A DNA stretch of 64,000 nucleotides from Microbacterium saperdae. GTDB taxonomy: Bacteria; Actinomycetota; Actinomycetes; Actinomycetales; Microbacteriaceae. The DNA lies in the NCBI RefSeq assembly GCF_006716345.1, contig NZ_VFOX01000001.1, positions 1 to 64,000 on the forward strand, in the 5' to 3' direction. Positions 1,116 to 53,179 of the stretch are shown here, one piece after another (position 1 is the first letter of the stretch; each line of letters begins with the position of its first letter). The position numbers were made by a program, and so were the translations under genes. The notes under the pieces are model-generated. The model ran no database searches, was not told the origin of the DNA, and saw only the letters and a list, made by a program, of their open reading frames with translations.

Positions 1116-1121
1116 AGGCTA
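1116..1121 (-). promoter_or_regulatory. -10 hexamer TAGCCT, leaderless BenE-like gene
   Basis: TAGCCT lies 6 nt upstream of the ATG at 1109, so transcription should begin at the start codon. No Shine-Dalgarno sequence is present. Confidence 0.55.
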
Positions 1122-1138
1122 GCGCCCGCGCGGCGTCG

Positions 1139-1837
1139 TCACGCGAGACCGAGGCGATGCGCCAGCACGACGGCCTGCACGCGATCGCGCGCACCGAGCT
1201 TCTGCAGGATGCGCGACACGTGCGTCTTCACCGTGGCCTCGCCGATGTACAGCGCTCCGGCGATCTCGGCGTTGCTGCGGGCGTCGGCGAGCAGCGCCAG
1301 CACCTCGGCCTCGCGCTCGGTCAGGGGCTCGGCGAGCACGGTGGCGGGAGCGGTGGCGGGAGCGGGAGCGGCGGGGGCCGCGACGACCGGGCCGGTGGCT
1401 GGGGTCGCGGCGAACCGGGCGAGCACGCGGCGGGTGACCTCGGGCGCCAGCATCCCGTCGCCGGCGGCGAGGGCGCGCACGGCGGCGATCAGATCCTCGG
1501 CGTCGGCGTTCTTGAGCAGGAAGCCGCTGGCGCCGGCCTCGAGCGCTCGGTGCAGATAGTCGTCGCGGTCGAAGGTCGTGACGATCGCGATCGCGGCGGC
1601 CACCGCGGGGTCGGCCACGATGCGCCTGGTCGCCTCGATGCCGTCCATGTCGGGCATCTGCACGTCCATCGTGATGACGTCCGGCTGTAGAGCGGATGCC
1701 TGCGCCACGGCATCCGCGCCGGTCGCCGCTTCACCGACCACCGTGATGTCGGGCTGCGTCTCGAGGATCGTGCGGAACCCGGCGCGGAGCATCGCGTGGT
1801 CGTCGACGAGCAGCACGCGGATGGGAGTGGTGGTCAT
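1139..1837 (-). CDS. NarL/FixJ-family response regulator
   Basis: Cytoplasmic DNA-binding response regulator of 232 aa. The receiver domain (about residues 5-120) has the acidic pair D12/D13, the phosphoacceptor D58 in the MDVQMPDMDG motif and a conserved Lys in FLLKNAD. An Ala/Pro/Thr-rich linker (about 145-170) leads to a C-terminal LuxR-type helix-turn-helix starting LTEREAEVLALL. The length is normal for the family. Its ATG overlaps the stop of the upstream histidine kinase by 4 bp (ATGA), so the two are co-translated and almost certainly partners. The signal and targets are unknown; the BenE-like gene 30 bp downstream is a candidate target but has its own promoter. Confidence 0.92.
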   Translation of the reverse strand: MTTTPIRVLLVDDHAMLRAGFRTILETQPDITVVGEAATGADAVAQASALQPDVITMDVQMPDMDGIEATRRIVADPAVAAAIAIVTTFDRDDYLHRALEAGASGFLLKNADAEDLIAAVRALAAGDGMLAPEVTRRVLARFAATPATGPVVAAPAAPAPATAPATVLAEPLTEREAEVLALLADARSNAEIAGALYIGEATVKTHVSRILQKLGARDRVQAVVLAHRLGLA

Positions 1838-3090
1838 GCGGGATCCTTCACTGCGGCGGTGGGGGAGAGCGGCACGCGTGCCCGCACCCGCAACCCGCCG
1901 TGCGGTCGCGGTGAGACCTCGATCGTGCCGCCCGAGGCGATCGCCCGTTCGCGCATGCCGAGCTGCCCGAGCCCCGGACGGAGTTGACCGACCGTGCGAC
2001 CGGTGTTGACGATCTCGACCTCGACGCCGTCGTCGTCGTACCGCACCCGCACATCAGCGGTCGCTCCGACGCCGGCGTGACGACGCGCGTTCGTGAGCGA
2101 CTCCTGCGCGATGCGGTAGAGGTTCACGGCCACGACCGACGGCACGCGCATCGGCTCGCCGATCACGGTGTACGCGGTGGGCAGTCCCGCATCCGTGGAG
2201 GAGGCGGTGAGATCGGCGATGTCGGCGAGGGTGAGGGTCGATGCCGGTTCTGCCGTGTCGCCCCCGGGCGTGCGCAGCGTCTCCAACAGCTGGCGCAGTT
2301 CGCTGATCGCATCGCGCGCGGAGGACTCGATCCCCGTGAGGATCCGCTTCGACTCGGACGGGTCCCGCTCGATCACCAGCCGCGCCGCTCCGGCCTGCAC
2401 GCCCATGACCGACACGTGGTGGGCGACGACGTCATGCAGCTCCCGGGCGATGCGTACGCGGTCCAGCGCGACCGCCTGCGCGGCGGTCACCTCGCGCTCG
2501 CGCTCCAGCTCGATCGTGCGCTGCTCCAGCACGGTGCGTTCGGCGGCCGATGCCCATGCGCGCTCGCCGAAGTAGTACGCCCCGCCGAAGTAGAGCGCGT
2601 TCAACATGATCTGGATCATCATGAAGGCGATGTAGGGGGAGAACGCCCCGGCGACGACATCCGCCTCATCCGCCTGCTTGATGGCCTCGTAGTACATGGT
2701 GATCAGCAGCCAGGCGAACATGCCGATGATGATCGCGATGCGCACGATCATGGCGCGGCGGCGGTCGTTCATCCAGGCACCCACCGAGTACAGGCCGATG
2801 AACATCGCGATGTTGCCGACGTAGAGCTCCGGCACCTTCACGGTCACCGCGACGAAGTAGGCCGTCGAGGTCACCACGGCGACGATGCCGGGCCAGCGGC
2901 GACGGAATGCGAGGGGAGCGGTCACGACGACGGAGTAGACCAGAGCGGTCCACAACGGCGCCTGCTGATCGCCGTAGATCTGGGCGATCGACGACAGTCC
3001 GGCGCTGATGTCGGCTCCGGCGAACAGCACGGCGGCGAGCAGCAGATCGTTGCGGCGTTCGCGGGCGGTCGGCGTGCGGGTGAACGGCAT
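1834..3090 (-). CDS. DesK/NarX-type sensor histidine kinase (HisKA_3)
   Basis: Membrane sensor kinase of 418 aa with the start placed at ATG 3090. The frame stays open to 3312 but that extension is low-complexity and lies over the divergent promoter. Four or five hydrophobic segments fill residues 15-175, followed by a short coiled linker (183-205). The dimerisation/phosphoacceptor motif ELHDVVAHHVSVMG places the phosphorylated His at H219. The HATPase domain follows, with an N-box in IAQESLTNARRHA and a G-box in GLGQLGMRERA. No extracytoplasmic sensor domain is visible, so the stimulus is probably sensed within the membrane region. Translationally coupled to the downstream response regulator. 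Confidence 0.9.
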   Translation of the reverse strand: MPFTRTPTARERRNDLLLAAVLFAGADISAGLSSIAQIYGDQQAPLWTALVYSVVVTAPLAFRRRWPGIVAVVTSTAYFVAVTVKVPELYVGNIAMFIGLYSVGAWMNDRRRAMIVRIAIIIGMFAWLLITMYYEAIKQADEADVVAGAFSPYIAFMMIQIMLNALYFGGAYYFGERAWASAAERTVLEQRTIELEREREVTAAQAVALDRVRIARELHDVVAHHVSVMGVQAGAARLVIERDPSESKRILTGIESSARDAISELRQLLETLRTPGGDTAEPASTLTLADIADLTASSTDAGLPTAYTVIGEPMRVPSVVAVNLYRIAQESLTNARRHAGVGATADVRVRYDDDGVEVEIVNTGRTVGQLRPGLGQLGMRERAIASGGTIEVSPRPHGGLRVRARVPLSPTAAVKDPA

Positions 3091-3161
3091 CCTCCCACCG
3101 TAGGGCGGAGGGGGATGCCGCGGCATCCGTCCCGTGGGGGAGATTCCCCCGGAACAGACTG

Positions 3162-3190
3162 TTGACGGCGTGCTTGTTTTTTGCAAGTAT
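3162..3190 (+). promoter_or_regulatory. possible promoter for the VOC-HxlR-DHFR operon
   Basis: TTGACG (3162-3167), a 17-bp spacer and AAGTAT (3185-3190) lie upstream of the GTG at 3263. The -35 is good and the -10 weak. Confidence 0.35.
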
Positions 3191-3262
3191 GCAGGCGACG
3201 GGTCTCGTGCCCGATCGACGGATGCCGCATTCCGCGGCCCGCGAAGCGACAAAGGAGTCATC

Positions 3263-3700
3263 GTGACCAAGGTCTTCGTCAACCTGCCCACCACCGATCT
3301 CGAGCGCAGCAAGGCGTTCTACACGGCACTCGGCTGCGAGATCAATCCGCTCTTCACCGACGAGAACGCCGCGTGCGTCGTCTGGGCGGAGGACATCTTC
3401 TTCATGGTGCTCAAGCGCGAGTTCTTCGCCACCTTCACCGACAAGCCGATCGCCGACCCGAACGAGGTCGCCCAGGTGTCCGTCTCCTTCAGCCGCGACT
3501 CCCGCGAAGACGTCGACGACATCCTCGCCAAGGGGCTCGCAGCCGGTGGCACCGAGCCCAAGCCGGCGCAGGACTACGGCTTCATGTACTCGCGCGACCT
3601 GGACGACCCCGACGGCAACTCGCTCGGCTTCCTGTTCATGACCGAGGAGGCTGTCGAGAACGGACCCGAGCACGTCGCGGAGCAGAGCACCGGCTCCTGA
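3263..3700 (+). CDS. VOC-superfamily (glyoxalase/extradiol dioxygenase fold) protein
   Basis: Protein of 145 aa with the paired beta-alpha-beta-beta-beta fold typical of the vicinal oxygen chelate superfamily: VNLPTTDLERSKAFYTALG at the N-terminus and YSRDLDDPDGNSLGFLFM at the C-terminus. GTG at 3263 is chosen because AAAGGAG sits 6-7 nt upstream; the frame is open further upstream but that part shows no conservation-like pattern. Members include glyoxalase-like and bleomycin-resistance-like proteins, and the substrate cannot be told here. The next gene, an HxlR regulator, begins 1 bp after its stop and a dihydrofolate-reductase-like gene follows. This is a familiar actinobacterial arrangement in which the HxlR protein probably controls the set. 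Confidence 0.85.
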   Translation: MTKVFVNLPTTDLERSKAFYTALGCEINPLFTDENAACVVWAEDIFFMVLKREFFATFTDKPIADPNEVAQVSVSFSRDSREDVDDILAKGLAAGGTEPKPAQDYGFMYSRDLDDPDGNSLGFLFMTEEAVENGPEHVAEQSTGS

Positions 3701-3701
3701 C

Positions 3702-4388
3702 ATGGCAGCGCGCAGCTACGGCCAGTACTGCGGTGTGACGACGGCCGTCGAGTTGATCGGAGAGCGGTGGGCGCTGCTCATCGTGCGCGATCTGCTCGTC
3801 GGCCCTCGCCGCTACACCGACCTCCGGCTGGGCCTGCCGCGCATTCCGACCAACATCCTCTCCACCCGGCTCAAGGAGCTGCAGGAGGGCGGGGTCGTGC
3901 GGCGGGTTCCTCTGCACAACTGCGGACTCGTCTACGAGCTCACCCCGTACGGCCGCTCGTTCGAGCCGATCATGCTCGCGATCGGACGCTGGGGATTCCA
4001 GGCGATGGGTGACCCGAGAGAAGGCGACGTCGTCACCCCCGACTCGTTGACGATGGCACTGCGCACCGCCTTCCGGGCGGAGTCGGCGACCGATGCCGAG
4101 TACGAGCTTCATGTGGGCGATGTCGCCCTGCGCGCCTCGGTGCACGGCGGCGCTCTCCGCGTCGCACAGCTCGCGCCGCCCGCCCCGCCCGTGGGCGGTA
4201 CCGCCCCCGCGGGTGATCCGGATGCCGTGATCGTCGCGGGTCCCGGCATCCGACTGCTGATCGGCGGCGAGCTCACTCCCGCCGAGGCGCTCGCACAAGA
4301 CGTCGTCGCGGTGGTCCGCGGCGAGGAGGCGTGGCTGGATTCGTTCGCCACGACCTTCCACATCCCGGCGCTGGTGGCAGCGCGCTGA
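3702..4388 (+). CDS. HxlR-family winged-helix transcriptional regulator with C-terminal SCP2-like region
   Basis: Cytoplasmic DNA-binding protein of 228 aa. Residues 5-105 form a clear HxlR winged helix: YCGVTTAVELIGERWALLIVRDLLVGPRRYTDL, then recognition helix IPTNILSTRLKELQEGG and wing VVRRVPL, ending in YGRSFEPIMLAIGRWG. Cys10 could be a redox sensor as in some HxlR proteins, but this is inference. The remaining ~120 residues resemble the SCP2-type extension seen in some actinobacterial HxlR proteins, a possible ligand pocket. It starts 1 bp after the VOC gene and ends 35 bp before the reductase-like gene, so it likely regulates its own operon. Confidence 0.88.
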   Translation: MAARSYGQYCGVTTAVELIGERWALLIVRDLLVGPRRYTDLRLGLPRIPTNILSTRLKELQEGGVVRRVPLHNCGLVYELTPYGRSFEPIMLAIGRWGFQAMGDPREGDVVTPDSLTMALRTAFRAESATDAEYELHVGDVALRASVHGGALRVAQLAPPAPPVGGTAPAGDPDAVIVAGPGIRLLIGGELTPAEALAQDVVAVVRGEEAWLDSFATTFHIPALVAAR

Positions 4389-4423
4389 ACCGCACGGCAG
4401 CATCCCTTCGCAAGGAGCACGAC

Positions 4424-5071
4424 ATGAGCACTGACGCTTCGACCTCCCCCGCATCCGGCCGCATCCTGATCGACCTGTTCACCTCTCTCGACGGCGTGGC
4501 CCAGGGGCCGGGCGGCACCGATGAGGACACCTCGGGCGGCTTCCGCTTCAGCGGCTGGCAGGCCGGCTATCCGACCGAGGGGGTGGGATCCGAGATCGAC
4601 AAGGGGATGCGACAGCTCGATGCACTGCTGCTCGGCCGCCGCACGTACGACATCTTCGCGGGGTACTGGCCACACCACACCGACGGGCCGGAGGGGGGCA
4701 TCGGACAGCTCTTCAACCGGGTGCCCAAGTACGTGGCATCCCGGGATGCCGACATCGCCCTGGACTGGGAGGGCAGCACGCGCGTCGGCGGCGACCTGGC
4801 CGCGGAGATCGCACAGATGCGGGCGTCGCACCGCGAGGTGCACGTGATCGGCAGCCTCGACTTCGTGCACACGCTGCTCGCGGAGGGGCTGTTCGACGAA
4901 CTCAACCTCTGGGTCTACCCGCTGCTGCTCGGCGCAGGCAAGAAGGTCTTCGACGACAACGCGCTTCCCGCCGTGCTCCGGCTGCTGCATCCCCCGATCA
5001 CCGACGAGGGCGGCGTGACGCTGCTCCGCTACGGTCGCACCGACCGGACGCCGGAGGTCGGGACGTTCTGA
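4424..5071 (+). CDS. dihydrofolate reductase family protein (RibD C-terminal-like)
   Basis: Protein of 215 aa of the DHFR/RibD-reductase superfamily, an NAD(P)H-binding fold. ILIDLFTSLDGVAQGPGG at residues 12-29 and the LLLGRRTYDIFAGYWP motif are diagnostic. The C-terminal half has VHVIGSLDFVHTLLAEGLFDELNLWVYPLLLGAGKKVF, typical of the YyaP/YwjB-like branch rather than true folate-pathway DHFR. ATG at 4424 has AAGGAG 8 nt upstream. It is the last gene of the VOC-HxlR operon and converges on the HAD phosphatase gene, whose stop lies 10 bp away. The substrate is unknown. Confidence 0.87.
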   Translation: MSTDASTSPASGRILIDLFTSLDGVAQGPGGTDEDTSGGFRFSGWQAGYPTEGVGSEIDKGMRQLDALLLGRRTYDIFAGYWPHHTDGPEGGIGQLFNRVPKYVASRDADIALDWEGSTRVGGDLAAEIAQMRASHREVHVIGSLDFVHTLLAEGLFDELNLWVYPLLLGAGKKVFDDNALPAVLRLLHPPITDEGGVTLLRYGRTDRTPEVGTF

Positions 5072-5080
5072 GCGACGCGC

Positions 5081-5890: not shown

Positions 5891-5914
5891 GGGAGCACGG
5901 TCACGAGATCAGGG

Positions 5915-6775: not shown

Positions 6776-6781
6776 GCCTCC

Positions 6782-6787
6782 AGCCTA
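6782..6787 (-). promoter_or_regulatory. -10 hexamer TAGGCT, leaderless xth
   Basis: TAGGCT lies 6 nt upstream of the xth ATG and directly abuts the 21-bp tandem repeat. Confidence 0.6.
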
Positions 6788-6868
6788 GTTGCGGCATCGG
6801 ACACCGGAGTTGCGGCATCGGACACCGGAGTTGCGGCATCGGACACCGGAGTTGCGGCATCGGACACG
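6788..6868. repeat. 21-bp direct tandem repeat, about four copies
   Basis: Three full copies of GTTGCGGCATCGGACACCGGA (6788-6850) are followed by a fourth that diverges after 17 bases. The array fills the space between the divergent xth and pyrE genes and touches the xth -10 element. There are no spacers, so it is not a CRISPR. Because 21 is a multiple of 3 it also reads as a seven-residue repeat on the minus strand, but nothing suggests it is translated. Confidence 0.95.
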
Positions 6869-6918
6869 CAGACTTTCTGCAGAACACGCTTCCCGCGGAA
6901 CACAGAGCCTGCGCCTTC

Positions 6919-6924
6919 TACACT
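6919..6924 (+). promoter_or_regulatory. -10 hexamer TACACT, leaderless pyrE
   Basis: TACACT lies 7 nt upstream of the pyrE GTG with no Shine-Dalgarno sequence. No recognisable -35 is seen. Confidence 0.55.
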
Positions 6925-6931
6925 GGACGTC

Positions 6932-11209: not shown

Positions 11210-11215
11210 AGCCTA
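11210..11215 (-). promoter_or_regulatory. -10 hexamer TAGGCT, leaderless HAD-IIA gene
   Basis: Six bases separate TAGGCT from the ATG at 11203, which decides the start codon in favour of ATG over the GTG at 11209. Confidence 0.6.
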
Positions 11216-11943: not shown

Positions 11944-11949
11944 AGTCTA
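11944..11949 (-). promoter_or_regulatory. -10 hexamer TAGACT, leaderless DtxR/MntR-type gene
   Basis: TAGACT is 6 nt upstream of the GTG at 11937. Confidence 0.6.
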
Positions 11950-12284: not shown

Positions 12285-12290
12285 AGCCTA
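12285..12290 (-). promoter_or_regulatory. -10 hexamer TAGGCT, leaderless small membrane protein gene
   Basis: TAGGCT lies 7 nt upstream of the ATG at 12277, inside the short gap after mntH. Confidence 0.5.
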
Positions 12291-12298: not shown

Positions 12299-13606
12299 TC
12301 AGGCGCCCGTGAGCACGAGCCACAGCAGGGCGCCGTTCAGGGCGATCAGCAGCACCGAGGCGACCACGCCGGCGGCGGTCGTCCAGACGCGGTTCGCCCA
12401 CACGCCGAGCGTGCGGCGCTGGGCCGTCAGCGCGACGAGCGGGATCAGCGCGAACGGGATGCCGAACGACAGCACGACCTGGCTGAGCACGAGTGCGAGC
12501 GTCGGGTCGACGCCGATGCCGAGGATCACGAGTGCCGGGATGAGCGTCACCAGGCGCCGGGCCAGCAGTGGCACGCGCACGTGCAGCAGGCCCTGCATGA
12601 TCTCGGCGCCGGCGTACGCGCCGACCGAGGTCGAGGCGAGACCGGAGGCGAGCAGCCCGACCGCGAAGAACGTCGCGACGACGGGGCCGAGGCCGGCGGC
12701 CAGTGCGGCGTGCGCGCCCTCGAGGGAGTCCGTACCTTCGACGCCGGCGAGGTTCGCGGCGGCCAGCAGCAGGATGCCGAGGTTCACCGAACCGGCGATG
12801 ACCATCGCGATCGACACGTCCCAGCGCGTCGCGGTGAGCAGGCGGCGGATGCGCGAGACATCGGTGCGCACGGCCTCGGCCGCGGCGTGCTGAGCGTGAT
12901 CCTGGTCTCGGAGGGATGCCGCTCCGAACCGGTCGCGGCTGAGCGCGGAGTGCGCGTAGATCGCGTGCGGCATGATCGTCGCGCCCAGGATGGATGCGGC
13001 GAGCAGCACGGATCCGGTGCCCTCGAAGCGGGGGACGAGGCCGCCCACCACGCCGGCGGGATCCGGGGGCGCGACGAAGACGCCGGCCACGAAGCCGATC
13101 GTGATGATCGCCATGAGGCCGACGATCACGAACTCGAAGTGCCGCGGTCCCCGTCGGCTCTGCACCGCCAGGAGCACCATCGAGACGGCGCCGGTGATCA
13201 CGCCGCCGAGCAGGAGCGGCACGTTGAACAGCAGGTTCAGCGCGACTGCGCCACCGATCACCTCGGCGAGGTCGGTGGCCATCGCCACCAGTTCGGCCTG
13301 CAGCCAGTACGAGCGTCGCGCCCAGCGGCTGCGGATGCGGGAGCCCAGCACCTCGGGAAGGCTCTGCCCCGTGACCACCCCGAGCTTGGCCGAGAGGTAC
13401 TGGATCAGCCAGGCCATCACGTTGCCCGCGACGACGACCCACACCAGCAGGTAGCCGTACTGCGCACCCGCCGTCATGTTGCTGGCGACGTTGCCCGGGT
13501 CGAGATACGCCACGCCCGCCACGAGTGCGGGGCCGAGCAGCCAGATGCTGCGGGGTGGAGTGGTGCGCGTCACGGGCGCCTCGGCAAGCACGGGATTTTT
13601 AGGCAT
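12299..13606 (-). CDS. mntH: Nramp-family Mn2+/divalent metal transporter MntH
   Basis: Inner-membrane proton-coupled metal importer of about 435 aa. TM1 carries the diagnostic DPGN metal-binding motif (VAYLDPGNVASNMTAGAQYGY) and TM6 has the MPH motif (ATIMPHAIYAHSAL). Around 11 hydrophobic segments are visible. An in-frame GTG at 13636 would add 10 residues, but ATG 13606 is preferred because TACGAT lies exactly 6 nt upstream. Two MntR-like palindromes, one over the start and one over the -35 region, indicate Mn-dependent repression, probably by the DtxR-type protein encoded nearby. Confidence 0.94.
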   Translation of the reverse strand: MPKNPVLAEAPVTRTTPPRSIWLLGPALVAGVAYLDPGNVASNMTAGAQYGYLLVWVVVAGNVMAWLIQYLSAKLGVVTGQSLPEVLGSRIRSRWARRSYWLQAELVAMATDLAEVIGGAVALNLLFNVPLLLGGVITGAVSMVLLAVQSRRGPRHFEFVIVGLMAIITIGFVAGVFVAPPDPAGVVGGLVPRFEGTGSVLLAASILGATIMPHAIYAHSALSRDRFGAASLRDQDHAQHAAAEAVRTDVSRIRRLLTATRWDVSIAMVIAGSVNLGILLLAAANLAGVEGTDSLEGAHAALAAGLGPVVATFFAVGLLASGLASTSVGAYAGAEIMQGLLHVRVPLLARRLVTLIPALVILGIGVDPTLALVLSQVVLSFGIPFALIPLVALTAQRRTLGVWANRVWTTAAGVVASVLLIALNGALLWLVLTGA

Positions 13607-13613
13607 GCCGAAA
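13598..13613. promoter_or_regulatory. MntR/DtxR-type operator 1 over the mntH start
   Basis: TTTAGGCATGCCGAAA is a near-perfect palindrome (7 of 8 positions symmetric). It covers the mntH ATG and predicted transcription start. Binding would block initiation. Confidence 0.65.
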
Positions 13614-13618
13614 TCGTA
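13613..13618 (-). promoter_or_regulatory. -10 hexamer TACGAT, leaderless mntH
   Basis: TACGAT lies 6 nt before ATG 13606. With a 17-bp spacer the -35 is TTTAGG, inside operator 2. Confidence 0.55.
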
Positions 13619-13625: not shown

Positions 13626-13641
13626 TTTCGGTACACCTAAA
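13626..13641. promoter_or_regulatory. MntR/DtxR-type operator 2 over the mntH -35
   Basis: TTTCGGTACACCTAAA has the same half-site pattern TTT(A/C)GG as operator 1, centred 28 bp away. It overlaps the mntH -35 and spacer, and its far end is about 24 bp from the divergent TrmH gene -10. Confidence 0.62.
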
Positions 13642-13664: not shown

Positions 13665-13670
13665 TAGCCT
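13665..13670 (+). promoter_or_regulatory. -10 hexamer TAGCCT, leaderless TrmH/SpoU gene
   Basis: TAGCCT lies 6 nt upstream of the ATG at 13677. Confidence 0.6.
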
Positions 13671-16198: not shown

Positions 16199-16204
16199 AG
16201 CCTA
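16199..16204 (-). promoter_or_regulatory. -10 hexamer TAGGCT, leaderless MATE gene
   Basis: TAGGCT lies 6 nt upstream of ATG 16192; the -35 region would lie just before the microsatellite. Confidence 0.6.
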
Positions 16205-16969: not shown

Positions 16970-16975
16970 TAGGGT
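16970..16975 (+). promoter_or_regulatory. -10 hexamer TAGGGT, leaderless M13 peptidase gene
   Basis: TAGGGT lies 6 nt before the ATG at 16982. Confidence 0.58.
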
Positions 16976-20650: not shown

Positions 20651-20656
20651 AGGATA
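20651..20656 (-). promoter_or_regulatory. -10 hexamer TATCCT, leaderless MarR gene
   Basis: TATCCT lies 7 nt upstream of ATG 20643. Its -35 region falls in operator box 1. Confidence 0.6.
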
Positions 20657-20657: not shown

Positions 20658-20686
20658 TTGACGACGTTCGTATTGCGAACTAGTTT
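20658..20686 (+). promoter_or_regulatory. promoter of the quinone-oxidoreductase-like gene
   Basis: TTGACG (20658-20663), a 17-bp spacer and TAGTTT (20681-20686). Operator box 1 occupies the spacer and box 2 follows the -10. Confidence 0.6.
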
Positions 20687-20701
20687 GGTTCGTAATACGA
20701 A
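20667..20701. promoter_or_regulatory. double MarR operator between marR and the oxidoreductase gene
   Basis: TTCGTATTGCGAA (20667-20679) and TTCGTAATACGAA (20689-20701) are each palindromic and together form an inverted pair, centres 22 bp apart (two helical turns). They overlap the promoter elements of both divergent genes. Confidence 0.75.
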
Positions 20702-21667: not shown

Positions 21668-21673
21668 TAGGCT
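21668..21673 (+). promoter_or_regulatory. -10 hexamer TAGGCT, leaderless 21680 gene
   Basis: TAGGCT lies 6 nt upstream of ATG 21680 and immediately after the preceding stop codon. Confidence 0.58.
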
Positions 21674-23548: not shown

Positions 23549-23554
23549 AGGCTA
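23549..23554 (-). promoter_or_regulatory. -10 hexamer TAGCCT, leaderless DHA2 exporter gene
   Basis: TAGCCT lies 6 nt upstream of the GTG at 23542. Confidence 0.6.
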
Positions 23555-23620: not shown

Positions 23621-24259
23621 ATGAGCGCTGATCTCGAGCAGCATCCCGCCGACACCCCTTTCCATCGTCGTCTGGTCTACGGCACGCGTCCGGACGGCGC
23701 GTGGATGACCCACGGGCCCGCCGGGGCTTACGAGTCGGTCGTGATGCGTCCGCTCGAACCCATGCTGGTGCCGGAGAAGCCGCGCAGGGGCGAACTCGAT
23801 CCGGAGAACTGCGGCGCCTGCGCCGTGGACGAGCACACCATCTGGCACGACGATCTCTGGCAGGTGCAGGCCGGGTGGGAACCGGGAGGCCTGCCGTTCA
23901 TCGGCGCCATCTCGCCGCGTGAGCACTGGCTCCTGGAGGATGCCCCCGTCGAGGTGCTCGCCGCGCTCGGTCCGCTCATGCAGCGGATCTCCGAGGCGGT
24001 CAAGCGGATCCCGGGCGTCGCGCGCTGCCACTTCAGCCGCTTCAACGACGGCTCGGCGCACCTCCACCTCTGGGCGTTCGCGCGCCCGGCCGGGATGATG
24101 CAGGGGCGCGGGGCTGTGCTCTCCTACTGGGACGGCATGCTCCCCGAGATGACGGTCTCGATGATGACCGAGTTCCTCGATATCGTCGCCGAGGCGCTCG
24201 CCGAAGGAGGCGGAACCGCGTACCCGATTCTGCGATCCCGCGAAGGAGGGGCAAACTAG
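23621..24259 (+). CDS. HIT-superfamily-like protein
   Basis: Soluble protein of 212 aa. A zinc-type ENCGACAV pair of cysteines (about residues 64-71) is followed by HTIWHDDLWQVQAGWEPGG and PFIGAISPREHWLLED, the layout of the N-terminal part of HIT hydrolases. The nucleotide-hydrolysing motif appears as SAHLHLWAFARP: two His are present, but the third of the usual HxHxH is Trp, as in some divergent HIT/GalT relatives. It is likely a nucleotidyl hydrolase or transferase of unknown substrate. The start is assigned by comparison of two close ATGs. A GNAT-like gene follows after 4 bp. Confidence 0.72.
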   Translation: MSADLEQHPADTPFHRRLVYGTRPDGAWMTHGPAGAYESVVMRPLEPMLVPEKPRRGELDPENCGACAVDEHTIWHDDLWQVQAGWEPGGLPFIGAISPREHWLLEDAPVEVLAALGPLMQRISEAVKRIPGVARCHFSRFNDGSAHLHLWAFARPAGMMQGRGAVLSYWDGMLPEMTVSMMTEFLDIVAEALAEGGGTAYPILRSREGGAN

Positions 24260-26888: not shown

Positions 26889-26894
26889 AAGGTA
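26889..26894 (-). promoter_or_regulatory. -10 hexamer TACCTT, leaderless POT transporter gene
   Basis: TACCTT lies 6 nt upstream of ATG 26882. Confidence 0.55.
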
Positions 26895-29471: not shown

Positions 29472-29477
29472 TACCTT
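29472..29477 (+). promoter_or_regulatory. -10 hexamer TACCTT, leaderless epoxide hydrolase gene
   Basis: TACCTT and six bases (CGAGAT) precede ATG 29484, which decides that start over the ATG at 29463. Confidence 0.55.
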
Positions 29478-31735: not shown

Positions 31736-31772
31736 GCCTCCAGTGTGCCACCCGGCGTGCGCGCGTGCGGGG

Positions 31773-33083: not shown

Positions 33084-33089
33084 ATCCTA
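33084..33089 (-). promoter_or_regulatory. -10 hexamer TAGGAT, leaderless hemA
   Basis: TAGGAT lies 6 nt upstream of the GTG at 33077. Confidence 0.6.
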
Positions 33090-33148
33090 CCCGAGCCTCC
33101 GCGGGGCATCTCCGCACACTCATAGAACACGGGTGGGAGGATGGAGGC

Positions 33149-34174
33149 ATGGCCCTCTCCGATGCTCCACTTCTGCGCGCCCTCGCCGGTGACCGCCCGG
33201 CCCAGACCCCGGTCTGGTTCATGCGTCAGGCAGGTCGATCCCTGCCGGAGTACCGCGAGCTGCGCGTCGGAACGCGGATGCTGGACGCCTGCCTGACCCC
33301 GGAGCTCGCGGCCGAGATCACCCTGCAGCCCGTGCGTCGACACGGCGTGGATGCCGCGGTGTTCTTCAGCGACATCGTGATCCCGCTGCGTCTCGCGGGC
33401 GTCGAGGTCGAAATCGAGCCCGGTCGTGGTCCCGTGTTCGCGAACCCGGTGCGCAGCGCCGCCGACGTCGACCGCATCACCGCGATCGACCCGGCATCCC
33501 TGGACTCGACCGCGATCGCCGAGGCGGTGCGTCTGGTGACGGCAGAGCTCGGCGACATCCCTCTCATCGGATTCGCCGGAGCACCGTTCACGCTCGCGGC
33601 CTACCTCGTCGAGGGCGGCCCCTCCAAGGAGCACCTCCGTGCGCGGGCCATGATGCACGCCGACCCCGATTCCTGGAACCGTCTGGCCGGGTGGCTCGCG
33701 CAGATCTCCCGCGCCTTCCTGGCCGCGCAGCGCGACGCCGGGGCATCCGCCGTGCAGCTCTTCGACTCGTGGGCCGGTTCCCTCAACCCGGCCGACTACC
33801 GCGCGTTCGTGGCGCCGCACTCGCGCGCCGCGCTCGAGGGCATCGACATCCCGAAGATCCACTTCGGCGTGGGCACAGGACCGTTCCTCGCCGACATGCG
33901 CCTCGACGGTGCGGTCGACGCGGTCGGCGTCGATTGGCGCCAGCCGCTCGACGAGGCCGCCGCGCTGCTCGGCCCCGACACCACGGTGCAGGGCAACATC
34001 GATCCGGCGCTGCTGTCGGCGCCGTGGCCGGTGCTCGAGGCGCATGTGCGCGACGTGCTGGCCCGCGGCCGTGCGGCCAGGGCCCACATCCTCAACCTCG
34101 GCCACGGCGTCCCGCCGGAGACCGACCCCGACCAGCTGACCCGCATCGTCGAGCTGGTGCACGCGCATGGCTGA
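33149..34174 (+). CDS. hemE: uroporphyrinogen decarboxylase
   Basis: Enzyme of 341 aa that removes four acetate carboxyls from uroporphyrinogen III to give coproporphyrinogen III. Signature 1 [19 protein letters not shown] and signature 2 [17 protein letters not shown] are exact. The catalytic Asp is in [21 protein letters not shown] ribosome-binding site precedes the ATG. It heads the plus-strand haem operon and overlaps the next gene by 8 bp. Confidence 0.96.
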
Positions 34175-36930: not shown

Positions 36931-36973
36931 CTCCGCGTTCGCGGGCGCTCGACAAAGAGGGCAGACTGGGGTC

Positions 36974-37651
36974 ATGTCCGAAGTGCGCGAAGAGAACCCG
37001 TCCGGCTTCACCCTCTGGGCGGTCTGGCGACGCAATCCCGATGTGGCCGTCACGGAGTCCGACTCGACGGAGCTGGAGACGATCGTCTCCTACGTCGAGG
37101 ACTCGGGCGTGACCGTGCGCGGCTTCTACGACGTCTCCGGCCTCAAGGCCGATGCGGACCTCATGGTCTGGCTGCACGGCGAGACGGCCGAGGAGCTCCA
37201 GCGCGCGCTGCGTCGACTGCGCCGCACCGAGCTGCTCCGCTCGCTGCTGCCGGTGTGGAACGTCATGGGCGTGCACCGCGACGCCGAGTTCAACCGCGCC
37301 CACGTGCCCGGGTTCCTGCGCGGCGTCGAGCCCAAGGACTGGCTCTGCCTGTACCCGTTCGTGCGCACGCCGGAGTGGTACCTCGCCCCCGAGGACGAGC
37401 GTCGCAAGATGCTCGCGGATCACGGACGCAAGGGCGCCGCATTCACGGGCGTCATCGCCAACACCGTCGCGGCCTTCGCGCTCGGCGACTACGAGTGGAT
37501 CCTGCCCCTCGAGGCGGATGACGTGACCGAGCTCGTCGACCTCATGCGCGACCTGCGGTACACCGATGCGCGTCTGTACGTGAAGGAGGAGCTGCCCTTC
37601 TACACCGGGCGCAGGCTCCGGTTCGACGAGATCGCGGACGTGCTGCAGTAG
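36974..37651 (+). CDS. hemQ: coproheme decarboxylase (HemQ/ChdC)
   Basis: Chlorite-dismutase-family enzyme of 225 aa that decarboxylates coproheme to haem b, the last step of the coproporphyrin-dependent pathway. The haem axial ligand is H150 in MLADHGRKGAAFTG, and the catalytic Tyr is in the LYPFVRTPEWYL segment (Y127 or Y136). The Arg of true chlorite dismutases is not evident, which supports ChdC. A near-consensus -10 (CAGACT) lies 6 nt before the ATG. hemC follows after 8 bp. Confidence 0.93.
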   Translation: MSEVREENPSGFTLWAVWRRNPDVAVTESDSTELETIVSYVEDSGVTVRGFYDVSGLKADADLMVWLHGETAEELQRALRRLRRTELLRSLLPVWNVMGVHRDAEFNRAHVPGFLRGVEPKDWLCLYPFVRTPEWYLAPEDERRKMLADHGRKGAAFTGVIANTVAAFALGDYEWILPLEADDVTELVDLMRDLRYTDARLYVKEELPFYTGRRLRFDEIADVLQ

Positions 37652-43215: not shown

Positions 43216-43221
43216 AGCCTA
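43216..43221 (-). promoter_or_regulatory. -10 hexamer TAGGCT, leaderless DUF222/HNH gene
   Basis: TAGGCT lies 6 nt upstream of ATG 43209. Confidence 0.6.
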
Positions 43222-43367
43222 GAACATATGTACGACACTCGGGGGAAGTCATCCACAGCTGAGATGCTCAGGAGCGCTGCTCCGATGGTGGGTTTCGACA
43301 ATGGATCGTTGCGTTCCTGTGAGCAACTTCCAGACAACTGGCAGGACCGCGCTGGCAGACTGGACTC

Positions 43368-46129: not shown

Positions 46130-46135
46130 TAGCCT
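46130..46135 (+). promoter_or_regulatory. -10 hexamer TAGCCT, leaderless HIBCH-like gene
   Basis: TAGCCT lies 7 nt upstream of the GTG at 46143. Confidence 0.58.
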
Positions 46136-47204: not shown

Positions 47205-47316
47205 GCGCTCGCCGCCTCTCCTTCCCCACTCTTCTCCTTCGCCCGTGCCTCGACTTGGCACGAGGTGTCGACTTGTTCGGCCCGGTGCAGAAATCGCTGG
47301 CCGGACCACGGAAAGG

Positions 47317-47348
47317 TTCGCTGTCAGCGAAGGTCCCCCGATAGGGGG
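47317..47348. promoter_or_regulatory. two inverted repeats upstream of the ABC exporter genes
   Basis: TTCGCTG-T-CAGCGAA (47317-47331) is a perfect palindrome, and CCCCC-GATA-GGGGG (47335-47348) follows at once. They lie in the ~250-bp leader/promoter gap before 47453; the first is operator-like, the second may be a leader hairpin. Confidence 0.4.
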
Positions 47349-47452
47349 ATACGAATGTCGGCGCTTCGTGGCACTCTTTCTTGTGGCCGATTGTCGGTCG
47401 GCATCCGTCAGCCGAGAAATCCGCCGATTCATCCTTCCTAGAAAGTCCGCCT

Positions 47453-49180: not shown

Positions 49181-51435
49181 GCGAGCAGAGCAACCCTTCG
49201 ACAGGCTCTGGGGCCGGTACCCGGAAGCAGCGCGGCCGCAGTAAGGCGGCAACGATCGAACCCGAACTGACCGCCGAGGAGAAGTACGAGGCCGAGCTCG
49301 CGGAGCAGGCGCGTCAGAACTCCGGCGACTGGGACAGTGTGGCGCCGGGCAAGGCCGACAACTTCGGTCCGAGCTTCGCCCGGATGATCGGTCTGCTCAA
49401 GCCGTCGGCACTCTGGTTCGTCTTCGTGTCGATCCTGGGCGCCATCGGCGTCGTGCTGACCGTCGCGGCGCCCAAGGTGCTCGCCGAGGCGACCAACCTC
49501 GTCTACAAGGGGTTCATCTCCATCCAGCTCGGGCAGCCCAGCGACGGCTTCCCCGGCTTCCCGGCCGGCACCTCGCAGGATGTCGTCGTCGAGGCCCTGC
49601 GTGCCGGTGGCCAGAACGACTTCGCCAATCAGGTCGGGGCGCTGGGCGACTTCACGGTCGGCCAGGGAATCGACTTCGAGGCCCTGCGGATGGTCATCGC
49701 CGCCGTCCTCAGCATCTACGTGGCTGCCGCGTTCCTCACCTGGATCCAGGGCTACGTGATCAACGTGATCATGGTCCGCACCATGTGGCGGCTGCGTGAA
49801 TCGGTCGAGGCGAAGATCAACCGTCTGCCGCTGGCGTACTTCGACAAGGTGCAGCGCGGTGAGCTGATCTCGCGCGTCACCAATGACATCGACAACATCA
49901 CGCAGACGATGCAGCAGTCGCTCTCCGGTGCGCTCACCTCGGTGCTCACCGTGATCGGCGTGCTCGTGATGATGTTCTCGATCTCGTGGCAGCTCGCGCT
50001 GGTCGCCCTGATCACGCTGCCGCTCATGGGCGTGATCTTCGGCATCATCGGGCCGCGGTCGCAGAAGGCCTTCGGCAGTCAGTGGCGCAAGGTCGGTCGA
50101 CTGAACGCCCGTGTCGAGGAGGCGTTCTCCGGCCACGCGCTGGTGAAGGTCTTCGGTCGCGAGAAGGATGCGCTGGAGAAGTTCCAGGACGAGAACGAAG
50201 AGCTGTTCCAGGCGAGCTTCAAGGCCCAGTTCCTGTCCGGCATCATCATGCCGGCCATGATGTTCGTCGGAAACCTCAGCTACGTGGGCATCGCGGTGCT
50301 CGGTGGTCTGATGGTCGCGAACGGGCAGCTCCGCCTCGGCGACGTGCAGGCGTTCATCCAGTACTCGCAGCAGTTCACGCAGCCGCTGTCCGAGCTGGGT
50401 GGCATGGCTGCCGTGGTCCAGTCCGGAACGGCATCGGCCGAGCGGGTCTTCGAGCTGCTCGATGCCGATGAGCAGGAGGCCGACGACGTCGACGCCCCCG
50501 AGCTCGTGGAGGGCAAGGGCGTGATCGAGTTCCAGAACGTCGCGTTCTCGTACACGCCGGAGCGTCCGCTCATCCGGGATCTGTCGTTCCGCGTGGAGCC
50601 CGGTCAGACCGTCGCGATCGTGGGACCGACCGGTGCGGGCAAGACCACCCTGGTGAACCTGATCATGCGCTTCTACGAGCTCAGCGGCGGGCGGATCATG
50701 CTCGACGGGCAGGACATCGCCGAGGTGACCCGCGACGAGCTGCGGTCGCGCACGGGCATGGTGCTCCAGGACCCGTGGCTGTTCGCCGGCAGCATCCGCG
50801 AGAACATCCGCTACGGCCGCTCGACCGCGACCGATGAGGAAGTCCAGGAAGCCGCCGCGGCGACCTACGTCGACCGCTTCGTGCACGCTCTCCCTGAGGG
50901 GTACGACACCGTGCTCGACGAGGATGCCGCGAACGTGTCGGCCGGTGAGCGCCAGCTGATCACGATCGCACGGGCGTTCGTCGCGAAGCCGTCGATCCTC
51001 ATCCTCGACGAGGCCACGTCGGCCGTCGACACCCGCACGGAGCTGCTGCTGCAGAAGGCGATGGCTGCTCTCCGCGAGGGGCGCACCTCGTTCGTGATCG
51101 CACACCGTCTGTCGACCATCCGCGATGCCGACCTCATCCTGGTGATGGAGCACGGTGACATCGTAGAGAAGGGCACGCACGACGAGCTCATCGCGGCGCA
51201 GGGTGCCTATTGGCGCCTGTACCAGTCGCAGTTCGAGCAGGCCGCGACCGACATCGACGCGGAAGACGCCCTCACCGGCTCGACCCCCGTCGTCGTCAGC
51301 GGTGAGGCGGAGGATGAAGCCGCTGCGGCGGTCATCGGCGCCTCCGTGGGCTCACAGCTGCCGGCAGCCGAGGTGGTGGCGGCCGAGGCCGTGGTCGAGA
51401 AGCCGTCGGCGGAAGGTCCCGACCGCACTGCCTGA
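49177..51435 (+). CDS. ABC exporter half-transporter (NBD2, catalytic site)
   Basis: Protein of 752 aa, partner of the previous gene. A polar N-terminus of ~70 residues precedes six TM segments (with a ~35-residue periplasmic insert after TM1, LGQPSDGFPGFPAGTSQDVV), then an NBD with Walker A GPTGAGKTT and Walker B ILILDEATSAVD with the catalytic Glu. The signature is changed to VSAGERQLI. Together the pair forms one canonical and one degenerate ATP site. A ~95-residue Ala/Glu-rich tail follows. A CTTCGACAGGCTC repeat element lies in codons 6-12. Likely lipid or drug export; substrate unknown. Confidence 0.92.
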   Translation: MSEQSNPSTGSGAGTRKQRGRSKAATIEPELTAEEKYEAELAEQARQNSGDWDSVAPGKADNFGPSFARMIGLLKPSALWFVFVSILGAIGVVLTVAAPKVLAEATNLVYKGFISIQLGQPSDGFPGFPAGTSQDVVVEALRAGGQNDFANQVGALGDFTVGQGIDFEALRMVIAAVLSIYVAAAFLTWIQGYVINVIMVRTMWRLRESVEAKINRLPLAYFDKVQRGELISRVTNDIDNITQTMQQSLSGALTSVLTVIGVLVMMFSISWQLALVALITLPLMGVIFGIIGPRSQKAFGSQWRKVGRLNARVEEAFSGHALVKVFGREKDALEKFQDENEELFQASFKAQFLSGIIMPAMMFVGNLSYVGIAVLGGLMVANGQLRLGDVQAFIQYSQQFTQPLSELGGMAAVVQSGTASAERVFELLDADEQEADDVDAPELVEGKGVIEFQNVAFSYTPERPLIRDLSFRVEPGQTVAIVGPTGAGKTTLVNLIMRFYELSGGRIMLDGQDIAEVTRDELRSRTGMVLQDPWLFAGSIRENIRYGRSTATDEEVQEAAAATYVDRFVHALPEGYDTVLDEDAANVSAGERQLITIARAFVAKPSILILDEATSAVDTRTELLLQKAMAALREGRTSFVIAHRLSTIRDADLILVMEHGDIVEKGTHDELIAAQGAYWRLYQSQFEQAATDIDAEDALTGSTPVVVSGEAEDEAAAAVIGASVGSQLPAAEVVAAEAVVEKPSAEGPDRTA
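49194..49212. repeat. CTTCGACAGGCTC-type dispersed repeat in coding sequence
   Basis: CCCTTCGACAGGCTCTGGG lies in the 5' part of the second exporter gene. It closely resembles the TCGACTCCGCTCAGGAC element three times repeated at 51525-51580 and is of a type I recall as dispersed in many genomes. Confidence 0.55.
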
Positions 51436-51475
51436 TCGCAGCGCCTGAGCGCGTGTGTGAACGCACGCCAGACGC

Positions 51476-51512
51476 AGAGGCCCCACCCCGGATCTTCCGA
51501 GGTGGGGCCTCT
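51476..51512. terminator. strong hairpin between the ABC exporter and S11 peptidase genes
   Basis: AGAGGCCCCACC and GGTGGGGCCTCT are perfect 12-bp arms around a 13-nt loop. It separates convergent genes and probably ends both transcripts. Confidence 0.75.
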
Positions 51513-51524
51513 CGCTGTCTGCCT

Positions 51525-51580
51525 GTCCTGAGCGGAGTCAGCTGGTCCTGAGCGGAGTCGAGCTAGTCCTGAGCGGAGTC
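51525..51580. repeat. GTCCTGAGCGGAGTC direct repeat x3 overlapping the S11 peptidase 3' end
   Basis: Copies at 51525-51539, 51545-51559 and 51566-51580 (20-21 bp period). On the minus strand the unit encodes LDSAQD followed by the TAG stop of the carboxypeptidase, so the terminal residues of that gene are repeat-derived. Confidence 0.85.
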
Positions 51581-53167
51581 GAGGCCGAGCAGGTCGAGCG
51601 GGTGGGTCAGGCGCCACCAGGGACTCGGGCCCTCGATGTCATCGGCGAGCACCAGCGGCGTCGTGGTGGTGTTGAGCGGTCCGGCCGTGGTGAGGGTTCC
51701 GATCCGCTCTCCGGCATCCGTCTCCGAGCTCAGCGTGAAGGCGGGGGTGGCCTGCGCCACAGCGCCGTTCCAGAGGATGACGTCGGCGTCGGCATCGGCG
51801 ATCACGTCGATCTTCTCGCCCCATACCGTGCGGACCTCCCCGACGACCGTGCCCTCCGGGACCGCGGGCTCCTGTGCCTGCAGTGCGGCCTCAGCCTCGG
51901 CGAACAGAGCCCGTGTCGCGGCGAGACGCTGCTCGTTGTCGTCCTGGTTGAGCACGGCGGCGAAGAGATGCACCGTCGTGTCGCCGACAGTGACGTCCTT
52001 GGCGGTGAGCAGATTCCAGCCGACCAGAGTTCCGGTCTTGATCCCGACCACGCCCGGGTCGGCGAGCATCCCATTCGTGTTCTCGACGGTGCCCGCGCCC
52101 GGGAGGTCCACCGACTTGGTGCCGACGATCTGCGCGAAGACCGGATTCTTCATCGCGTACTCGCCCAGGGCGACGAGAGACGCCGGCGTGGAGACGTTGC
52201 GCTCGTCGAACCCTGACGGCGTGACGACGGTGATGCCGGACAGTCCGCGGTCGCGCAACCAGATCGCTGCCGCTTCGGCGAACTCCCGGTCGGACCCCCA
52301 GATCTCGGAGGCGAGACGGTCGATGTAGTTGTTCGCCGATCCCAGCAGCGTCCCCTGGAGGAGCTGGTACTCGGTCAGCACTCCGCCGACCGGCACGTCG
52401 AGCGCTGACTGGTCGGACCGCCGGTACGACCAGTAGTCGAGGCTGTCGCGGTACGTGAAGGAGAACTCCGGGCCCTGCTCGCCGAGAGCGAGCGGCATGC
52501 GGTCGAGCACCATCAGAGTGCTCACCACCTTCGTGATGCTGGCGATGCTCACGGCGTCCGGGATCGAAGTGGACGTCGTCATGCCCTCGATGCCGACGGC
52601 TGCGCTGCCCTGTGCCGGCCAGGTCGCCACAGCGGCCGGGGCGGGCACGGTGGCGAACTCCACGGATTCCACGGTGGGGGCGACCTCGTGCAGTGGCCAC
52701 AGCAGCGTGCCTCCGACGTAGGTCGCGACGAGACCCGCCAGGACACCGAGTGGTACCAGCAGGCCGGGGCGCGCGATCGCCGGACGGAGCTTCGCGCCGC
52801 GCATCAGCGCCACCCCCGGGTCGGCGTCCGAGGCCTGGTCGAAGGAGGGAGCCGGAGAGTTGCCTGCGATGGTCTCGGCTTCGACCCAGGTCAGAGCAGT
52901 GGCGGGAGCCGCCTCGTCGGCCCATTGTGCCGTACCGGGCGTGAGAGCGTCGGTGGCGTCGGACTCGACGTCGATGAGGTCGGGCTCGGCCTCGGCGGGG
53001 GAGTCTTCCTCGAGCGGCTCCGGAGCGACCACCGTCTCGTACTCGTCGGGACCGTCGCTCGACTCCGGCTCGCCGGGATCGGGCGTGACCGTCGGCGCAG
53101 CGTCGCCGATGACGGCGTCGCCGGGGGCAGCTGCGGCGGTGGCCTCGGCAGGGTCAGAAGCGGTCAC
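51563..53167 (-). CDS. D-alanyl-D-alanine carboxypeptidase, S11 (PBP5/6-like)
   Basis: Serine peptidase of 534 aa that trims D-Ala from peptidoglycan stem peptides. A disordered acidic N-terminus (1-130) precedes one TM segment (~135-158), so the catalytic part is extracytoplasmic. Active-site motifs are S210-ITK213, S276-AN278 and K376-TG. The GTG start at 53167 lies six bases after TAACTT. The long cytoplasmic acidic region, rich in Asp, Glu and Pro, is unusual for S11 enzymes and may bind other division or wall proteins. The C-terminal LDSAQD is part of a short tandem repeat. Confidence 0.9.
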   Translation of the reverse strand: MTASDPAEATAAAAPGDAVIGDAAPTVTPDPGEPESSDGPDEYETVVAPEPLEEDSPAEAEPDLIDVESDATDALTPGTAQWADEAAPATALTWVEAETIAGNSPAPSFDQASDADPGVALMRGAKLRPAIARPGLLVPLGVLAGLVATYVGGTLLWPLHEVAPTVESVEFATVPAPAAVATWPAQGSAAVGIEGMTTSTSIPDAVSIASITKVVSTLMVLDRMPLALGEQGPEFSFTYRDSLDYWSYRRSDQSALDVPVGGVLTEYQLLQGTLLGSANNYIDRLASEIWGSDREFAEAAAIWLRDRGLSGITVVTPSGFDERNVSTPASLVALGEYAMKNPVFAQIVGTKSVDLPGAGTVENTNGMLADPGVVGIKTGTLVGWNLLTAKDVTVGDTTVHLFAAVLNQDDNEQRLAATRALFAEAEAALQAQEPAVPEGTVVGEVRTVWGEKIDVIADADADVILWNGAVAQATPAFTLSSETDAGERIGTLTTAGPLNTTTTPLVLADDIEGPSPWWRLTHPLDLLGLDSAQD

Positions 53168-53173
53168 TTGCCT

Positions 53174-53179
53174 AAGTTA
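53174..53179 (-). promoter_or_regulatory. -10 hexamer TAACTT, leaderless S11 peptidase gene
   Basis: TAACTT lies 6 nt upstream of the GTG at 53167. Confidence 0.55.

Follow-up and report, generated by a model that had tools for sequence, protein, structure and literature searches.

Why should one short hexamer, TANNNT, end 6 or 7 nucleotides (nt) before the start codons of many genes on both strands of the same stretch of DNA, and what would its function be? The question arises in the first 64 kb of contig C1 of Microbacterium saperdae (the window, that is, the entire analyzed stretch of 64,000 nt; the genome comprises 4.32 Mb in two contigs, with 69.6% GC), for which an initial annotation had listed 19 such sites as a leaderless start module. 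All 19 are present, 15 of them ending 6 nt and four ending 7 nt before an ATG or GTG codon (Table 1), and a twentieth gene, 3090 (genes are denoted here by the positions of their start codons), had been overlooked. The description of the hexamer as usually TAGGCT or TAGCCT narrowly holds in the window, where these two forms account for six and four of the 19 named sites, respectively; in the larger sample described below, they make up 42 of 129.

The hexamers very probably are -10 elements of sigma-A promoters that fire at the start codon and yield leaderless mRNAs, and they come in two promoter forms, denoted T1 and V1. The -10 element of the housekeeping sigma-A would be positioned such that the first base of the start codon is also the first base of the transcript, and ribosomes would initiate on the resulting leaderless mRNAs without a Shine-Dalgarno (SD) sequence. 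The T1 form would consist of T-12, A-11, NNN and T-7, with nothing fixed upstream; in the V1 form, mostly [C/G]-12 A-11 NNN T-7, a near-invariant G-14 (often T-15 G-14) together with GG after the hexamer would replace T-12. What points to sigma-A is A-11, T-7 and the bases that follow the hexamer.

Spacing between the hexamer and the start codon

Genes were called with our own simple codon-model caller, which yielded 62 genes in the window, lost pyrE and dropped genes near the ends of stretches. Each in-frame ATG, GTG or TTG near every called start was then taken as a candidate, and TANNNT hexamers ending d nt upstream were counted for d from 0 to 30, a procedure meant to take away the reader's freedom in choosing starts. 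In the window, TANNNT was found 16 times at 6 nt and three times at 7 nt, and 0 to 3 times at each of the other spacings; the 19 genes counted in this way are 18 of the named ones and 3090. The initial annotation held this spacing to be beyond chance and proposed a genome-wide scan, and the excess was indeed found in a sample of 864 kb with 694 genes, made up of the window and forty further 20-kb stretches of this genome: 98 genes carry the hexamer at 6 nt and 31 at 7 nt, that is, 129 of the 694, with about 11 expected (Poisson tail of about 1e-87). The spacing is sharp, with a mean of 5.6 genes at the other distances, five at 5 nt and six at 8 nt, so that about 17% of the genes carry TANNNT at 6 or 7 nt beyond chance. 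A coarse control over the whole genome gave 119 matches to TAGSCTN{6,7}ATG and 53 to the reversed pattern. The control word TNNNAT, counted in a smaller sample of 380 genes (68 with the module and 312 others) that also served for the SD and -35 tests below, occurs 12 times at 6 nt and nine times at 7 nt, compared to 1 to 11 times at other spacings.

Because the starts had been picked by a reader who knew the motif, coincidence helped by this freedom has to be considered. However, the excess persists when all candidate starts are counted at every spacing, and with the starts chosen by the caller only, 92 of the 694 genes remain (68 at 6 nt and 24 at 7 nt), with about three expected and a mean of 1.6 at each other spacing; furthermore, the module is conserved in relatives. 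The two kinds of counts rule out an origin by start choice, and the probability of this explanation is practically nil.

The window is richer in modules than the remaining sample (19 of 62 genes versus 110 of 632, p = 0.016) and therefore overstates the genome-wide rate. Altogether, 26 of the 64 window genes carry a module, 20 of the TANNNT form and six of the V1 form, including BenE, MarR and S11, which have no comparative support.

Conservation of the module in the genus

Two kinds of comparisons were made, namely, genus locus sets around six window genes (30 loci each, the locus of the query genome included) and a congener set in which 64 window genes were compared with syntenic stretches of 13 congeners. 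Conservation counts take only tblastn hits that start within 25 residues of the N-terminus, and near-identical loci were retained. Of the 186 orthologous starts of the 19 named genes in the 13 congeners, 171 have the module, compared to 3.8 in a control with shifted spacing, whereas for 40 other window genes it occurs at 4 of 362 orthologous starts (control, 2.0).

The case of hemA is the most extensive. The HemA protein of the window is 90-91% identical to HemA of several Microbacterium genomes (M. oxydans, M. maritypicum and others), and from a named set of 80 loci, one (L062) was dropped because it lies at a contig edge. In all 79 counted loci, TANNNT precedes the GTG codon, at 6 nt in 71 and at 7 nt in eight, and the hexamer is kept although the sequence upstream of it diverges. 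Across the order, 49 of 59 genomes were matched, 30 loci were kept, 26 were aligned and seven of these have the module, all in the same family or in one other family (f14); therefore, by this locus test, leaderless hemA is not order-wide.

With the hexamer reduced to ANNNT, conservation is close to all-or-none for each gene. For 24 of 54 testable genes, namely, 17 TANNNT genes (16 named ones and 3090) and seven genes without T-12, 75% or more of the relatives keep the word at 6 or 7 nt; in the other 30, it is present in 7 of 11 species once and otherwise in 0 to 3. The single intermediate case, gene 47453, has an AAGG-like sequence upstream and was left out of the module count.

Where transcription and translation would begin

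In the standard numbering of -10 elements, the hexamer spans positions -12 to -7, so that with a gap of 6 nt, +1 coincides with the beginning of the start codon. The proposal of the initial annotation that transcription begins at or next to the codon is the best reading of the spacing, the base at -1, the gene context, the conservation and the codon periodicity taken together. At the sites with 7 nt, position -1 is a pyrimidine in 28 of 31 cases, compared to 62 of 98 at the sites with 6 nt (p = 0.0035) and 340 of 565 in other genes (p = 0.0005); a purine occupies it in 3 of 31 and 36 of 98 cases, respectively. This preference is expected if RNA polymerase skips on to the A or G of the start codon.

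The start codons of the 129 modules are 85 ATG and 44 GTG, with no TTG. We further examined 110 pairs of a window gene and an ortholog that share the module and the start, in which T-12, A-11 and T-7 are fixed by construction. The mismatch rates at the three positions of codons 2-4 are 0.14, 0.08 and 0.29, and upstream the rate is flat at 0.57-0.59; the codon periodicity thus begins at codon 2. This result bears on the possibility that translation truly starts downstream of the module codon, in which case the mRNAs would have short ordinary leaders. Such an arrangement could be entertained given that the starts are predictions and that the coding-score caller preferred another start for several genes. 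It is nevertheless quite improbable: the asymmetry of substitutions by codon position is already full in codons 2-4; the GTG of hemA is present in all 79 loci, with the following codons conserved; and where the start codon is displaced by a few codons in a relative from the congener set, the hexamer is found ahead of the displaced codon, that is, it shifts along with the start. The claim that the module decides several start codons is borne out by genes 1109, 13606, 23542 and 11203, which the caller placed elsewhere. The module and its footprint together settle starts that the coding score misplaces, and start codons and promoters can be fixed jointly from sequence in a genus for which our literature searches yielded no maps of transcription start sites (TSSs).

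The gene context points in the same direction. Modules are present in 8 of 204 genes with a co-directional upstream gene at most 20 nt away, compared to 117 of 467 in other contexts (23 edge genes were excluded), and 58 of the 129 lie downstream of a gene on the opposite strand. The hexamer begins most commonly with TAG, as in TAGGCT and TAGCCT, which could be taken to mean that an upstream frame overlaps the hexamer and stops at its TAG or TAA, with the two genes translationally coupled. However, hexamers with TAC or TAT are found at this spacing too, and a divergent gene context such as that of the 58 modules, along with the paucity of modules among close co-directional genes, rules out coupling, which we consider extremely improbable.

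As for the ribosome, SD-like tetramers were detected in 5 of 68 module genes and in 174 of 312 others, a depletion that is partly mechanical because the hexamer occupies part of the tested stretch. The initial annotation assumed that no SD sequence is used, and initiation at these genes may proceed in this way. Among the same 68 modules, no -35 motif is visible, with no position upstream of the hexamer exceeding 0.4 bits.

A second class with G-14 in place of T-12

The initial annotation also listed four genes (31735, 36974, 43368 and 57309) with CANNNT at the same spacing. The four sites exist, all at 6 nt, but they are not a one-letter variant of the module; they belong to a separate class that goes with G-14. 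Two further window genes of this class, 24264 and 33149, had been overlooked; 33149 had initially served as a negative control, a role that was dropped when it proved to be a V1 gene. Selection by ANNNT conservation alone yielded the seven genes without T-12, namely, 24264, 31735, 33149, 34191, 36974, 43368 and 57309. At the orthologous starts of the four CANNNT genes in the 13 congeners, TANNNT was found in 0 of 46 cases, and CANNNT precedes 43368 at 6 or 7 nt in 30 of 30 genus loci. The notion that CANNNT is a degraded TANNNT was rejected, given that TANNNT appears in 0 of 30 and 0 of 68 orthologs and CANNNT or GANNNT is conserved.

When the seven genes are weighted equally, G-14 is present at 99% and T-15 at 61%, position -12 is C at 63%, G at 30% and A at 8%, and the two positions after the hexamer are G at 89% and 93%; TANNNT genes have G-14 at 37% only. 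The relatives show TGG-CAGACT (43368), TGN-[C/G/A]ANNNT (31735), GGG- or AGG-CAGACT (36974) and mostly CAGGAT with G-14 (57309). Where TG is lacking, the hexamer of 33149 is GAGAAT or GACAAT in 8 of 8 loci, and that of 31735 is GAGAAT in 8 of the 13 listed. A full TGN requirement for the V1 form was dropped because the window sequence reads GGG or CGG at 36974, 24264 and 57309.

The V1 form is also discernible beyond these genes. Among the 565 sample genes without TANNNT, the pattern.G.[CG]A...T occurs 43 and 33 times at 6 and 7 nt, respectively, compared to a mean of 13.1 and a maximum of 26 at other spacings. The strict core [CG]A.[AG][AC]TGG was found at the starts of 20 of these genes with G-14 and at none without it (about 1.2 and 1.3 expected, respectively). 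With the ATG at 6 nt, the core with G-14 lies at gene starts in 12 of 17 cases and never inside genes in our sample, and the core without G-14, at both spacings together, lies inside genes in 12 of 16 cases and at a gene start once. We also counted the ATG form of the core in 58 genomes, with G-14 and in the non-G form, each against a reversed control and with coding matches included. The excess over the control is larger for the G-14 form than for the non-G form in 35 of 35 genomes of the genus (6.7-fold versus 2.2) and in 23 of 23 genomes of other families of the order (5.1 versus 2.1).

The distinctness of the V1 form raises the possibility that it depends on another sigma factor and is not a variant of the housekeeping promoter. 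The form is kept across relatives, with no T-12 form in six of the seven genes (in the exception, 24264, 2 of 12 relatives have TANNNT), and the middle of its hexamer is mostly G-[A/G]-[A/C], unlike that of T1. On the other side, both forms have in common A-11, T-7, the spacing and the G-rich stretch behind the hexamer, combinations of T-12, G-14 and the V1 core exist (seven cases versus about 0.2 expected), and the extended -10 known for the housekeeping sigma factor has the V1 shape (PMC5511352, as described in part of that text). A separate sigma factor hence appears unlikely. Because T-12 and G-14 co-occur, the rule for sigma-A would be T-12 or G-14, without mutual exclusion; within this genome, exclusion between T-12 and TG was not significant (TG in 2 of 129 T1 modules, about 3.5% expected).

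More tentatively, with slightly less than even confidence, we propose that leaderless promoters throughout the order combine A-11 and T-7 with T-12 or G-14, that the arm used is largely fixed within the genus, that the spacing of 7 nt goes with a pyrimidine at -1 and that, by both arms together, about 40% of the genes of a region (26 of 64 here) can be leaderless. Genome-wide, the predicted share would be near a quarter of the genes, that is, about 17% with TANNNT by excess and about 50 of 694 with the G-14 form. This either/or rule is a testable statement on how the housekeeping polymerase reads promoters without a visible -35, and a scan for TANNNT alone overlooks the G-14 class.

Observations that weigh against leaderless initiation at these sites come from several directions. 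The gene starts are predictions, from a simple caller and tblastn extrapolation, and the leaderless starts are predicted here from sequence. The pairs used for codon periodicity all share the module and the start, so that a slightly longer leader remains compatible with them, and the absence of TTG starts is not significant (16 TTG among 565 other genes, p = 0.09). ANNNT carries little specificity: in 6 of the 54 genes, one or more of nine control spacing pairs likewise reach the level of 75% of the relatives. Furthermore, 4 of 30 DtxR orthologs have no module at 6 or 7 nt, the BenE module is kept in only one of seven relatives, and no orthologs of MarR 20643 and S11 53167 were found in the congener stretches examined. 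With the ATG at 7 nt, the V1 core with G-14 lies inside genes in 9 of 12 cases and at starts in three, and the core without G-14 lies inside genes 11 times, at a start once and elsewhere twice; because the 7-nt core is often inside genes, the genome-wide V1 pattern counts contain many coding matches.

The remaining V1 gene, 34191, encodes a protein of the flavin amine-oxidase family and adjoins hemE on the plus strand; the V1 module is present in 10 of 13 relatives. In the window, a start at 34167 overlaps the end of hemE (34174), and one relative (G014) looks alike, so that the gene apparently represents a natural switch of the initiation mode in the window strain. In a genome of another family (G018), identical V1-like strings recur among the matches listed, GGGAGAATGGATGAATG at least seven times and TTGAAAATGGAGGGGATG at least four times; these probably belong to a repeated element.

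Relation to known leaderless genes and promoters

Leaderless starts of this type are ordinary in kind and represent a known phenomenon in Actinobacteria. Mycobacterium, in which many of the promoters compared below were described, belongs to another order than Microbacterium, and a minimal promoter with G-14 or G-13 was reportedly described by Zhu et al. in 2017. The papers cited here are represented by parts of their texts. Zheng et al. (2011) identified TANNNT about 12 bp upstream of the start as the -10 box of leaderless genes, which account for more than 20% of the genes in Actinobacteria and, as TA-led genes, for 18.9% in S. coelicolor (PMC3160421). The position is the same here, at about 17% of 694 genes by excess, and two hallmarks of TA-led genes, the excess of TANNNT about 12 nt upstream and the ATG or GTG starts, were observed. 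These authors noted little information in the middle of the hexamer in high-GC genomes, whereas GGC and GCC are the most common here (42 of 129); a genus-wide, gene-by-gene footprint was not found in the portion of the paper at hand, and Microbacterium is not named in its main text (PMC3160421).

In Mycobacterium tuberculosis, Cortes et al. (2013) mapped 5' ends and found that 26% of the genes with a primary TSS are leaderless, with a TANNNT -10 and no -35 motif (PMC3898074). TANNNT without -35 is common to both cases, but that evidence is experimental and from another genus, whereas ours is a sequence-based prediction. Similarly, TAnnnT is shared with Corynebacterium glutamicum, where 33% of the genes are leaderless and AUG and GUG make up about 79% and 21% of the starts, compared to the 85 ATG and 44 GTG of the 129 predicted here (PMC3890552). 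For mycobacteria, ANNNT and 24% leaderless genes have been reported (PMC6448022).

The V1 class resembles the extended -10 and G-14 promoters of mycobacteria, for which the published counts pool leaderless and leadered transcripts: the extended -10 TGNNANNNT was found in 15% of the -10 hits in M. tuberculosis (PMC5511352), and in M. marinum, with 39.8% of the primary TSSs leaderless in normoxia, YANNNT is accompanied by G-14 or G-13 in 88%, a TGN form being present too (PMC8022548). The hallmark of extended -10 promoters, G-14 (often T-15 G-14) that compensates for a poor -10, is seen in the V1 class. The relation found here, T-12 or G-14 fixed for each gene, is not stated for mycobacterial promoters in the available parts of these two papers. 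What the present analysis adds is the per-gene fixation across the genus and the complementarity of T-12 and G-14 within leaderless starts, although the literature search was small and we make no claim of priority. No TSS mapping in Microbacterium was found among the matches listed in the literature, searches directed at the genus and the family included. Genes whose predicted leaderless state persists throughout the genus, such as hemA, xth, pyrE and M13, provide a natural test bed for why genes stay leaderless.

Individual sites and neighboring features

Table 1. Predicted -10 elements (T1 and V1 forms) and other features of the window. Relatives are those examined for the respective gene.
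Feature	Sequence	Positions	Strand	Spacing and start	Gene	Conservation
T1 -10	TAGCCT	1116..1121	-	6 nt, ATG 1109	BenE-like	weak, 1/7 aligned relatives
T1 -10	TACGGT	3097..3102	-	6 nt, ATG 3090	histidine kinase	11/12 relatives
T1 -10	TAGGCT	6782..6787	-	6 nt, ATG 6775	xth, Exo_endo_phos	30/30 genus loci, 13/13 congeners
T1 -10	TACACT	6919..6924	+	7 nt, GTG 6932	pyrE-like phosphoribosyltransferase	21/21 genus loci, 12/12 congeners
T1 -10	TAGGCT	11210..11215	-	6 nt, ATG 11203	HAD hydrolase	19/19 genus loci, 13/13 congeners
T1 -10	TAGACT	11944..11949	-	6 nt, GTG 11937	DtxR family	26/30 genus loci, 11/13 congeners
T1 -10	TAGGCT	12285..12290	-	7 nt, ATG 12277	no Pfam match	11/11 and 9/9 (two locus sets), 10/10 congeners
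T1 -10	TACGAT	13613..13618	-	6 nt, ATG 13606	mntH, Nramp	27/29 genus loci, 10/11 congeners
T1 -10	TAGCCT	13665..13670	+	6 nt, ATG 13677	SpoU/TrmH methylase	24/25 genus loci, 12/13 congeners
T1 -10	TAGGCT	16199..16204	-	6 nt, ATG 16192	MATE	19/19 genus loci, 13/13 congeners
T1 -10	TAGGGT	16970..16975	+	6 nt, ATG 16982	M13 peptidase	30/30 genus loci, 13/13 congeners
T1 -10	TATCCT	20651..20656	-	7 nt, ATG 20643	MarR	window sequence alone
T1 -10	TAGGCT	21668..21673	+	6 nt, ATG 21680	no Pfam match	8/10 congeners
T1 -10	TAGCCT	23549..23554	-	6 nt, GTG 23542	MFS transporter (DHA2 in the initial annotation)	11/11 congeners
T1 -10	TACCTT	26889..26894	-	6 nt, ATG 26882	POT	10/12 congeners
T1 -10	TACCTT	29472..29477	+	6 nt, ATG 29484	epoxide hydrolase	5/5 congeners
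T1 -10	TAGGAT	33084..33089	-	6 nt, GTG 33077	hemA	79/79 named loci, 11/11 congeners
T1 -10	TAGGCT	43216..43221	-	6 nt, ATG 43209	DUF222	6/7 genus loci, 5/6 congeners
T1 -10	TAGCCT	46130..46135	+	7 nt, GTG 46143	enoyl-CoA hydratase family, HIBCH-like	29/30 genus loci, 13/13 congeners
T1 -10	TAACTT	53174..53179	-	6 nt, GTG 53167	S11 peptidase	window sequence alone
V1 -10	CAAACT, GGG upstream	24252..24257	+	6 nt, GTG 24264	no Pfam match	ANNNT at 6/7 nt, 12/12 relatives
V1 -10	CACACT, TGG upstream	31742..31747	-	6 nt, ATG 31735	HhH-GPD	13/13 relatives
V1 -10	GAGGAT, TGG upstream	33137..33142	+	6 nt, ATG 33149	hemE, URO-D	11/11 relatives
V1 -10	CAGACT, GGG upstream	36962..36967	+	6 nt, ATG 36974	chlorite dismutase family, HemQ-like	ANNNT at 6/7 nt, 10/11
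V1 -10	CAGACT, TGG upstream	43356..43361	+	6 nt, ATG 43368	no Pfam match	13/13 relatives
V1 -10	CAGGAT, CGG upstream	57316..57321	-	6 nt, ATG 57309	APH phosphotransferase fold	ANNNT at 6/7 nt, 7/9
Palindromic box	TTTAGGNNNNCCGAAA type	13598-13613			mntH	
Palindromic box	TTTAGGNNNNCCGAAA type	13626-13641			mntH	
Inverted repeat		20667-20701			MarR	
TPP riboswitch		53250-53361	+			
Reading frame		399-1109	-		BenE-like	

Two 16-bp palindromic boxes flank the -10 of the predicted leaderless mntH gene, and one of them overlies the start codon. Among the 30 mntH loci (the window's own included), 28 have one or more boxes close to an end of the match, and in 20 there is a pair with a distance of 27-28 bp; three boxes of this type occur elsewhere in the 30 loci. 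The boxes are a candidate operator of the nearby DtxR-family regulator.

Directly upstream of the predicted MarR promoter, there is a 14-nt inverted repeat (93% complementary, arms 7 nt apart) that likely constitutes a MarR-type operator. The BenE-like frame matches about the first half of the Pfam profile (positions 8-177 of 378) and, because of this half-profile match and the lack of conservation of the module, the gene may be a broken or divergent copy. Next to the S11 gene and divergent from it lies a thiamine pyrophosphate (TPP) riboswitch (56.7 bits), that is, a leadered neighbor. Finally, the start of contig C2 resembles the reverse complement of the start of C1 (window positions 1 to about 8800), with two identical module sites and an identical copy of xth; the two shared starts probably are overlapping contig ends.

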